In this document: positions 8,427-13,056 of the stretch, piece by piece
How positions within the stretch are numbered: the stretch's first letter is position 1
How the letters are laid out: each line of letters begins with the position of its first letter
NCBI GenBank assembly: GCA_027452265.1
Contig: DAIDGR010000076.1
Span: forward strand, 1 to 39,654
Source of the DNA: Caulobacteraceae bacterium
GTDB taxonomy: Bacteria; Pseudomonadota; Alphaproteobacteria; Caulobacterales; Caulobacteraceae
DNA length: 39,654 nt
Direction of reading: 5' to 3'
The notes under the pieces: model-generated
What the model saw: only the letters and a program-made list of their open reading frames with translations
What the model was told of the DNA's origin: nothing
Database searches by the model: none
Translations under genes and position numbers: made by a program

Positions 8427-9863
8427 CTAGCCGGCGGAGAAGGGATAGGGCGACACGGTCTTTTCGAACGAGTCCACGGCCAGGGCGCGCCCGGCGGGCT
8501 CGGCCGCCCGCTGCGGACAGGCGGGCCGCTCGCAGATCCGGCAGGAGGGGCCGATCTGGGTCACTTGCGGGGCGCCAAGATCGAGCCCACGCGCATAGGC
8601 GAGCCGGTGGGCGTATTTCAGTTCACAGCCAAGCCCCAGGGACAGCTCCGCCTCGTCCTCGCCCGGGGGAGGGGCGACCCGCCGGACGGTCCGGGCGAAG
8701 GTGAAATAGCGCTGACCCTCAGGGGTCTCGATGATCTGCGTGACGATGCGGCCCGGCGTGCGGAAGGCGGCATGCAGGCGCCAGCGCGGGCACACCCCGC
8801 CAAAGCGTGAGAACGGAAAGGCTCCGGCGGCGAAGCGCTTGGAGGTGTTTCCTGCCGCATCGACCCGGAGCATGAAGAACGGGACGCCCCGCGCCGTGGG
8901 TCGCGAGAGGCTGGTGAGGCGATGGCAGGCCTGCTCAAATCCCACGCCGAAGCGGGCCCGAACCCGGTCCATATCATAGCCGGTCTCCTCGCAGAGGCTG
9001 CGGAAGGGGGCGTAGGGCATCATCTGGGCGGCGGCGAGATAGTTGGCCAGGGTGACCTTGAGGAGGCGCGCGGTCGCGATATCCGGCGGCGCCGCCCGGG
9101 CGACCAGAGCGGTCAGCAGGTCATCGCCCTCGAACAGGCCGAGCTGATAGGCGAGGGCGAAGGCGCGGCCCGCCGCATCAAGGCGTTCGGAGATGATCAG
9201 CCGACGGCGATGATGGTCGTAGCGGCGCACCAGATCGCTGACGAGGTCGGCTGAAGCGATACGGACCTGCACACCGTGGCTTTCGGCGAGGCGCTGGCGC
9301 GCCGCATCGAAAAAGCCGTGCGGTTCGGCGCGCAGCTCCCCGGCGAGGGTCTCGCCCAAATCCTCAAGTTCTGGGAAATGGTTGCGCTGGCCCTGAAAGT
9401 GGTCGCTGACCCAGTCCGAGGGCGTGATCGAGGCCGCCGGATCGGCCGATCGCGCGCCGCGCGAGGCCCCGTCATAGAGCCGTCGCTCGCCGTGGGCGCG
9501 ATAGAGCCGAACAAAGGCCTCCGCGAGGCCCGGCGTCGTCTCCAAGGCTTCGCCGATCTCATGTCGCGGCACGGCGAGATCCCGGAACAGAGGGTCGGCC
9601 AAGACCTCGGCGAGGTCCTGCGCGCCGCCCGCATCAACCTCGCTGGAGAGGCTACGCACATCGATGTCGTAGGTCTGGGCGAGGCGCAGCAGAATCTGCG
9701 CCGTCAGGGGCCTCTGATTGCGTTCGAGATGGTTGAGATAGCTCGGCGAGACGGCGAGCTCCTGAGCCATGCGCGTCTGGGTCAGGCCCAGCTCACGGCG
9801 CAAGCGGCGCAACCTGGCGCCAAGGAACAGCTTGCGGTCTTGCGCGGTTGCAGCGGCAGGCAT
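8427..9863 (-). CDS. ScfR/RamB-type transcriptional regulator (XRE HTH + IrrE-like + DUF2083)
   Basis: Predicted 478-residue regulator. An XRE-type helix-turn-helix lies at about 12-68 ([20 protein letters not shown]). The middle is an IrrE/ImmA-like domain whose usual HExxH motif is replaced by [12 protein letters not shown], so it is probably not a protease. The C-terminal DUF2083 region ends with a Cys cluster (C441, C444, C449 in [12 protein letters not shown]). Members of this family include RamB, which controls acetate and glyoxylate genes in Corynebacterium, and PccR, which controls propionyl-CoA carboxylation in Rhodobacter; both are thought to respond to acyl-CoA status. Its divergence from isocitrate lyase, with paired dyads between them, strongly suggests that it regulates the glyoxylate shunt. 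That role is inferred from family and position. Confidence 0.88.
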
Positions 9864-9874
9864 GCGGCCCTTCT

Positions 9875-9912
9875 GTCATATTTTGACCGGCTTTACGAGG
9901 TCATCTTTTGAC
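9875..9912. promoter_or_regulatory. Paired GTCA-N5-TGAC dyads between regulator and isocitrate lyase
   Basis: Two near-identical 13-nt sites, gtcatattttgac (9875-9887) and gtcatcttttgac (9900-9912), differ at one base, each forms a GTCA-N5-TGAC dyad, and they are spaced 25 bp apart. The first begins 12 bp upstream of the regulator's start codon; the second is about 110 bp before the aceA start. This arrangement fits cooperative binding by a dimeric regulator that represses itself and controls aceA. No binding is proven. Confidence 0.5.
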
Positions 9913-10023
9913 TTGCTGGCTTTTCGTCACACTCTTCGATTGCGAGCTGGCCAGCGCCGCTTCTATGGCCTGTCCCCTCGCGACGCCGCATCCGGCCGTC
10001 GCGTGATGGAGCATCAAGGCGTC

Positions 10024-11325
10024 ATGACCACCTTCCAGGATCTCGTTCCCGGCGCGCCAGCCGGCCGGTTCGCCAGCGTGCAGCGGCCCTACAGCCCGGC
10101 CGACGTGGCCAAGCTGCGGGGTTCGGTGACGGTCGCCCATACCCTGGCCGAACGCGGCGCCAACCGTCTTTGGGCGTCGCTGCACAGCGAGCCCTACATC
10201 AACGCCCTGGGCGCGGTGACCGGCAACCAGGCGATGCAGATGGCCCGGGCCGGACTGCAGGCCATCTATCTGTCCGGCTGGCAGGTGGCGGCCGACAACA
10301 ACACGGCCGGGGCCATGTATCCGGACCAGAGCCTCTACCCGGCGAACTCCGCGCCGGAGCTGGCGCGCAAGATCAACCGCACCCTTCAGCGCGCCGATCA
10401 GGTGGAGCACGCCGAGGGCGGGGCCAAGCGCGACTGGTTCCTGCCGATCGTGGGCGACGCCGAGGCCGGCTTTGGCGGGCCGCTGAACAGCTTCGAGATC
10501 ATGAAGGCCTTTATCGAGGCCGGCGCGGCGGGCGTACATTTCGAGGACCAGCTCGCCAGCGAGAAGAAGTGCGGCCACATGGGCGGCAAGGTTCTGATCC
10601 CCACCGCCGCCCACGAACGCAATCTGATCGCGGCACGTCTGGCGGCCGATGTGTGCGGCGTGCCGACCCTGGTCTTCGCCCGTACGGATGCGGAGTCGGC
10701 CAAACTGATCACGTCCGACATCGACGAGCGCGACCGTCCCTTCATCGTTGAGGGCGAGCGCACGGCCGAGGGCTTCTACCGGCTGAAGGACGGCACGGGG
10801 TTGCAGCACTGCATCGCCCGGGGCCTGGCCTACGCCAAATACGCCGACGCCCTGTGGTGGGAGACCTCGCATCCCAATCTGGAGGAGGCGCGCGCCTTCG
10901 CCGAGGCCGTGCACAAGGTCTATCCGGGCAAGCTTCTGGCCTACAACTGCTCGCCCTCGTTCAACTGGGAGGCGAACATCGACAAGGCCACCATCGCCAA
11001 ATTCCAGCGTGAGCTGGGGGCGATGGGCTATAAGTTCCAGTTCGTCACCCTGGCCGGGTTCCACAGCCTCAACATGGGCATGTTCGAGCTGGCCCTGGGC
11101 TACAAGGACCGGGGCATGGCCGCCTACTCCGAGTTGCAGCAGAAGGAGTTCGCCGCCGAGGCCATGGGCTATTCGGCCACGCGCCACCAACGCGAAGTCG
11201 GCACCGGCTATTTCGACGAAGTGGCCATGGTGATCTCCGGCGGGGCCTCGTCCACCACGGCCCTGGCCGAGTCCACCGAGGCGGCCCAGTTCAAGACCGC
11301 CAAGGGCGAGCCCGTCCCGGCCTGA
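10024..11325 (+). CDS. aceA: Isocitrate lyase
   Basis: Predicted 433-residue isocitrate lyase, which cleaves isocitrate to glyoxylate and succinate, the first step of the glyoxylate shunt needed for growth on acetate or fatty acids. The signature KKCGH is at residues 181-185 with the catalytic Cys at 183. The substrate/Mg segment GDAEAGFG is near 144-151, and the N-terminal region has the expected WQVAADNN motif. The length matches the bacterial family. The start at 10024 ([16 protein letters not shown]) matches the usual N-terminus; an in-frame ATG 18 nt upstream is possible, and neither has a strong ribosome binding site. It is followed by malate synthase on the same strand and is divergent from the ScfR-like regulator. 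Confidence 0.97.

Positions 11326-11454: not shown

Positions 11455-13056
<1,602 letters not shown>

Follow-up and report, generated by a model that had tools for sequence, protein, structure and literature searches.

Twin dyads between a RamB-like regulator gene and aceA as a predicted composite operator in the Caulobacteraceae

The ramB-aceA locus and its twin dyads

The window, i.e. the whole stretch of 39,654 nucleotides of Caulobacteraceae DNA that was analysed, carries a regulator gene of the ScfR family that is divergent from aceA and aceB, and two short dyads were found in the region separating the regulator gene from aceA. The features of the locus are:

8427–9863, minus strand: ScfR-family regulator, RamB-like, 478 aa, with HTH, IrrE-like/Peptidase_M78 and ScfRs domains
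9867–9920, plus strand: whole predicted operator element as modelled, 54 bp, with a core at ~9873–9914; 33.3 bits on the held-out profile
9875–9887 (17-bp form 9873–9889), no strand: dyad 1, GTCATATTTTGAC; exact GTCA-N5-TGAC match at conserved profile columns
9893–9898, plus strand: weak middle half-site TTACGA (family consensus TnACAA), from the sequence and profile columns
9900–9912 (17-bp form 9898–9914), no strand: dyad 2, GTCATCTTTTGAC; exact GTCA-N5-TGAC match at conserved profile columns
10024–11325, plus strand: aceA, isocitrate lyase of the PRK15063 subfamily; NCBIfam 731.5 bits against a cutoff of 562
11455–13056, plus strand: aceB, malate synthase A, downstream of aceA on the same strand; TIGR01344 855 bits against a cutoff of 594.5

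The regulator has the HTH, IrrE-like and C-terminal ScfRs domains that together mark the ScfR/IsaR family, with a match to Pfam ScfRs (PF09856) at 6.5e-61 and matches to PF06114 and the HTH likewise over their cutoffs. The NCBIfam RamB model (NF038139) was matched over near its full length with 389 bits, a score that does not reach the RamB equivalog cutoff of 700 bits, and PDB 6cz6 (PrpR) was matched over residues 73–473 (E 2e-65). The family is further marked by a C-x2-C-x4-C motif and an upstream Cys for a [4Fe4S] cluster, and these were found, as a motif match only, at C441-x2-C444-x4-C449 and Cys358, all four cysteines being invariant in 12 aligned relatives. The motif positions correspond to C447/C450/C455 and C363 of MtPrpR, a member of the IsaR clade from Mycobacterium tuberculosis, in the accessible part of the relevant report (PMC6765138). 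The cysteines of the window regulator thus resemble the [4Fe4S] site of MtPrpR, and the cluster is putative. However, MtPrpR regulates the methylcitrate cycle (PMC6765138, same part), unlike the glyoxylate setting of the window regulator. The label 'class-2-like' RamB is applied here provisionally, from the gene order and the half-sites described below. A consensus promoter scan returned nothing for the regulator gene or aceA.

In the first-pass annotation, two 13-nt dyads that differ at one base and lie 25 bp apart had been reported between a regulator of RamB/ScfR type and aceA. This arrangement was confirmed, the 25 bp being the distance from start to start. Dyad 1 is separated by 11 bases from the ATG of the regulator gene (which ends at 9863 on the minus strand), and the ATG of aceA is 111 bp from the element. 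The middle half-site, TTACGA, begins 9 bp past the right half of dyad 1. The sequence GGCTTTTCGTCA was seen at 9918–9929 of the window, 5 bp past dyad 2, and by eye again at locus L002, and Phenylobacterium loci have a similar GCCTTTT at the same place, also by eye. It may be a component of the aceA promoter.

Taken singly, GTCA-N5-TGAC is at chance level genome-wide, with 26 sites in 2.73 Mb against ~29 expected (the window shuffle mean of 0.42 scaled up to the genome). Two matches anywhere in the window are only slightly out of the ordinary, since 9 of 100 shuffled windows also contained at least two, and what matters for the twin dyads is their adjacency rather than two matches somewhere in the window. 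At the density of single dyads, simple arithmetic gives ~2.5e-4 pairs exactly 25 bp apart per genome. There are 24 other single sites in the window's genome, and none of the 21 that were scored exceeded 15.9, whereas the window dyads scored 18.7 and 17.0. An open frame of at least 90 codons spans the site in 19 of these 21, which is a weak sign of a gene because the genome is GC-rich.

The element was also scored with a held-out profile of 67 non-redundant sequences, from which ten loci grouped as near relatives of the window had been left out. The window element gave 33.3 bits, whereas no other non-overlapping position in the window exceeded 0.9 bits and the best of 200 window shuffles (mononucleotide, one strand) gave 7.8 bits. 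The 94 bp surrounding the site were also shuffled locally with dinucleotides preserved, and none of 5000 such shuffles equalled the observed profile score.

Conservation of the element across the Caulobacteraceae

Relatives of the regulator were collected from 99 genomes of the family (91 with some match at E≤0.001), from named records (the best 80 of 408) and from further stretches, and those with ~52% identity or more were taken as the same regulator class, giving 134 loci. Comparison of the upstream regions of aceA in relatives, as proposed in the first-pass annotation, revealed that the dyad element is conserved, with a profile match at 128 of the 134 regulator loci. The profile behind this count was fitted iteratively to the very loci being counted, and duplicate genomes are included, as the named records and the G-numbered family genomes overlap; the held-out scan of the window (33.3 against 0.9 bits) is the cleaner test. 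Locus counts here and below are not independent, since rows share ancestry and some are duplicates, and 74 non-redundant loci remained after elements at least 85% alike were dropped.

With the spacing left free, the two dyads were 25 bp apart in 67 of the 74 non-redundant loci, 24 bp apart in three, 26 bp apart in one and otherwise spaced in the other three. The family consensus is TTGTCA-N5-TKACA followed by the half-site TnACAA and then GTC-N6-TGACAA, with the dyads 25 bp apart, or in a fuller spelling TTGTCACA-n3-TkACA, a spacer with TnACAA, and GTC-n4-TGTGACAA. Core half-site columns mostly carry 1.1–1.8 bits (0.64 for the k column and 0.58 for the C of the second GTC), and most spacer columns carry 0.1–0.5 bits. 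The symmetry was matched by 0 of 2000 column permutations for dyad 1 and by 4 of 2000 for dyad 2. The profile starts no more than 60 bp from the start of the aligned regulator in 127 of the 128 loci.

Exact twins of GTCA-N5-TGAC are present at 36 of the 128 loci (24 of the 74 non-redundant ones), and those other than the window look Brevundimonas-like. They include 24 named records (among the best 80 of 408), of which 21 are named Brevundimonas and three are MAGs without a genus name, and the remaining 11 are from G-numbered genomes of a single genus, g3. Six of the 134 loci lack a profile element. Five belong to genus g15 (G029, G060, G075, G089 and G094), where the model R1 described below places the element ~180–210 bp upstream of the regulator, and one (L134) has a truncated regulator match.

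R1, a sequence-only model, was built from 42 elements, including that of the window, and used at stricter filters to scan the 99 family genomes, with 52% identity or more counted as 'with regulator'. At E≤0.01, a match was found in 41 of 54 genomes with the regulator and in 0 of the 45 counted as without it (Fisher 9e-17), and, on comparison of the coordinates by eye, none of the 41 matches is more than about 210 bp from the regulator. In G069, one of the 45, the end of a contig carries a fragment of 52 residues with 71% identity that is probably a truncated copy of the regulator, and more distant fragments are present in a few more of the 45. Among the 13 regulator-bearing genomes in which R1 misses the element, four (G007, G009, G010 and G018) favour another spacing and G014 has a truncated match. 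In the window's genome the only R1 match is the window element (E 1.9e-5, with the window in the training set). At the sensitivity of R1, no wider regulon was seen in the window's genome or the 99 family genomes (E≤0.01), which show only regulator-adjacent sites. As judged from sequence, the position, the spacing, the near-palindromic symmetry and the co-occurrence with the regulator class are conserved across the Caulobacteraceae.

The lyase gene next to the element varies. Using short text motifs, the lyases at the 134 loci were typed as PRK15063-like (64), as one of two PRK06498-like groups (32, two of which also have DUF4170), as DUF4170 only (6) or as 'other' (4), and 28 were untyped. A Pfam ICL search at E≤1e-20 missed the PRK06498 lyases in many genomes, and NF005074 was used instead. 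The same element adjoins a PRK15063 lyase in the window and in Brevundimonas, and a PRK06498 lyase in Phenylobacterium and Caulobacter. The element was absent at all 10 loci in which an ScfR paralog with 42–43% identity lies beside a PRK06498 lyase (best profile scores −19.5 to 6.2). Upstream of this paralog (L135–L144), a repeat of its own, roughly TTACAACATTACA ... TGTAAAGTTTGACA, was seen by eye and is possibly a candidate for an undescribed operator type.

In genus g21, the element was found upstream of ramB in all four regulator-bearing genomes (G020, G045, G054 and G062; 37–54 bits), with an R1 match in G054 only. Beside this ramB element neither a lyase nor a DUF4170 gene could be recognised, and the g21 lyase is on a different contig from ramB. 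At L010, L011, L012 and L016, a long open frame in the same direction, with a similar C-terminus in each, terminates within the element upstream of ramB or at its border; by eye, this frame is MobA-like. Weaker copies of the element were found upstream of the DUF4170-lyase stretch in three of the four g21 genomes, with 31.4, 32.8 and 34.5 bits, scores equalled by 4, 0 and 0 of 5000 local dinucleotide-preserving shuffles. Shuffles of the whole 901-bp stretches (maximum 8.8) overstate significance because promoters are AT-rich, and the local shuffles were therefore added. In the fourth genome, G045, only 400 bp precede the lyase match, which is about where the element starts in the other three. 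As R1 gave a partial, weak match to one of the three lyase-side copies and missed two, these copies are suggestive rather than firm.

A small DUF4170-like protein recurs near isocitrate lyase or directly past the RamB element in 24 of 151 sources (text motif, duplicates included), for example at L035, L037–L039, L043, L047, L056, L061 and L065, and also at L241, L243 and L244. PF13773 was confirmed for the L035 copy, the remaining copies being assigned by text motif, and no convincing copy was found in the window's genome (best E 0.23). The protein is a possible, hitherto unknown, partner of the glyoxylate shunt.

Relationship to RamB operators outside the family

The accessible part of a study of the class-2 RamB of Paracoccus denitrificans Pd1222 (Kremer et al. 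2023, PMC10370305) describes a protein that binds two boxes beside its own gene and controls glyoxylate genes, activating the glyoxylate operon on acetate, with repression on succinate proposed. The boxes, which are beside the ramB start, are required for expression of the divergent glyoxylate operon, and both are required for acetate induction. According to the same part of that study (PMC10370305), the protein goes from a tetramer to dimers with CoA esters, and intermediates of the ethylmalonyl-CoA pathway act on it, with beta-methylmalyl-CoA proposed as the ligand. From the wild-type and mutant oligonucleotides in Table 3 of the study (PMC10370305), the boxes were derived here as TGACAAACCTTACA and TGACAATACTGACT, 14 bp each.

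Paracoccus and the window have in common an ScfR regulator divergent from glyoxylate-cycle genes, and two similar boxes or dyads right beside the ramB start and upstream of glyoxylate genes, and the half-sites TGACAA/TTACA, 9 bp apart inside a box, agree. However, in the part of the study available (PMC10370305), the Paracoccus half-sites are mainly head to tail, and an 18-bp spacer puts the starts of the two boxes at a distance of 32 bp, whereas the window has two inverted dyads 25 bp apart and lacks the 18-bp spacer and 32-bp distance of a class-2 operator. The operon order also differs, being malate synthase-icl in Paracoccus (PMC10370305) and aceA-aceB in the window. The Paracoccus operator scores −17.8 bits on the Caulobacteraceae profile, and as it does not match the profile only the half-sites agree. 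The earlier suggestion of a lineage-specific operator therefore holds for the geometry but not for the half-site, since TGACAA/TTACA is also found in the Paracoccus class-2 RamB operator as given in the accessible text (PMC10370305).

The upstream regions of the 28 best relatives from other alphaproteobacterial families (two pairs of which are near-identical) were also compared. Head-to-tail half-sites 9 bp apart were found in 14 of these 28 (shuffled mean 0.1) against 22 of 74 Caulobacteraceae loci, and inverted half-sites at the Caulobacteraceae distance in 3 of the 28 against 42 of 74. AT-rich upstream regions from the other families reached up to 28.8 bits on the raw profile, with 4 of the 28 at 15 or more. 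After correction for composition, the best two of 12 that were re-examined gave 12.6 and 5.5 bits, and 0 of 1000 local shuffles equalled either. As a few of the 28 keep profile-like stretches, the contrast in geometry between the Caulobacteraceae and other families is one of degree, and a related arrangement may be present in the other families. Closely similar recognition helices (SYLN...RNQRP or HNQRP) are shared by the window regulator, three members of its class and four relatives from other families, a set that does not include the Paracoccus protein.

RamB of Corynebacterium glutamicum, a class 1 regulator of acetate metabolism in the same family, has a TTTGCAAA-like motif. In a third ScfR class (L145–L150, 37–41% identity), TTTGCAA-type (TTTGCAAA-like) repeats were seen by eye upstream in four of the six (L145, L146, L148 and L149), and a different recognition helix, SYLSQIETNQRP, was present in the two members inspected. 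No published RamB/ScfR operator from the Caulobacteraceae was found in the open-licence literature, and such sequences may be present among the genomes listed by Kremer et al. or in their motif logo. Stationary phase strongly induces aceA and aceB in Caulobacter, and both are affected by CspC, aceA through mRNA stability, as described in the accessible part of an earlier report (PMC4551563). This CspC effect does not compete with the reading of the element as a RamB operator.

A candidate RamB operator and its input signal

As the element keeps its place and spacing across the family, the twin dyads are very likely the operator by which the regulator governs the utilisation of acetate and fatty acids and, probably, its own gene. 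It is highly probable that a single composite operator, predicted here from sequence comparison, is made up of the two dyads and the intervening half-site and serves the adjacent class-2-like RamB of the ScfR/IsaR family. The element would most likely be bound by this RamB and control both aceA and ramB.

The single dyad is generic, its 26 copies in the genome being about the chance level, and another factor with GTCA/TGAC half-sites, e.g. of the GntR or CRP type, might bind there, the nearness of ramB being incidental. However, the composite element matches the window's genome only once, in the family every match to it adjoins a regulator of this class (41 of 54 genomes with the regulator, 0 of the 45 counted as without it), and it is absent where the regulator class differs though the lyase subfamily is the same, so that binding by such a factor is unlikely. 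An RNA hairpin, acting as a terminator or attenuator, would be in keeping with the folding of the 60-nt stretch, which on either strand is better than that of the majority of shuffled versions (z −2.5 and −2.7), though a nested palindrome would fold in this way too. A simple terminator scan returned no terminator-like site at the locus, and fixed half-site letters with variable spacers are the pattern of protein recognition. A chance pair is very unlikely given the held-out profile, the 25-bp spacing in 67 of 74 loci and the local shuffles, and a hairpin or chance origin of the paired repeats is, taken together, extremely improbable.

The element could alternatively be mainly autoregulatory for ramB, with little effect on aceA. 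Its place close to the regulator start at nearly all loci, with the aceA ATG 111 bp off in the window, and its position before ramB with no adjoining lyase in g21 are consistent with this. However, g21 copies also stand before the separate DUF4170-lyase stretch in three of four genomes, and the Paracoccus boxes, though likewise beside the ramB start, are needed for the divergent glyoxylate operon in the part of that study available (PMC10370305). A mainly autoregulatory role is thus quite unlikely.

If the element is the composite RamB operator, one RamB dimer would bind each dyad, and a tetramer or two cooperating dimers would extend over ~42 bp. Binding of an acyl-CoA would then change the oligomer and switch aceA, and perhaps aceB, from repressed to activated. 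The same binding of RamB would limit transcription of ramB, and this self-limitation is probable because the element begins 11 bp from the ramB start codon. Autorepression, suggested in the first-pass annotation from the position of the dyad nearest the regulator, is therefore plausible, and the g21 element that stands before ramB without an adjoining lyase is consistent with it, the sign of the regulation being presumed.

Crotonyl-CoA carboxylase/reductase (Ccr) is the key enzyme of the ethylmalonyl-CoA pathway. At E≤1e-100, Ccr was found in 31 of the 99 family genomes, but not in the window's genome (98.9% complete) or in any of the 10 congeneric genomes searched. As Ccr was not found in the window's genome, the signal described in Paracoccus, beta-methylmalyl-CoA, is doubtful as the ligand of the window regulator, and the signal is probably another CoA ester. 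It is possible, if somewhat doubtful, that the RamB switch was rebuilt in the Caulobacteraceae, from head-to-tail repeats of TTTACAA/TGACAA at 9 bp, as found upstream of relatives in other alphaproteobacterial families, to a pair of inverted dyads with 25-bp spacing on which a tetramer would sit, with the input moved from intermediates of the ethylmalonyl-CoA pathway to another CoA ester where Ccr is missing and the glyoxylate output kept despite the exchange of the lyase.

These findings raise the question of which ligand RamB responds to in lineages that lack Ccr of the ethylmalonyl-CoA pathway. Both the lyase subfamily and the regulator class have been exchanged at these loci, which represents a natural experiment on operators following regulators, and the element provides a concrete, searchable candidate operator for the glyoxylate-shunt regulator in Caulobacter, Phenylobacterium and Brevundimonas.
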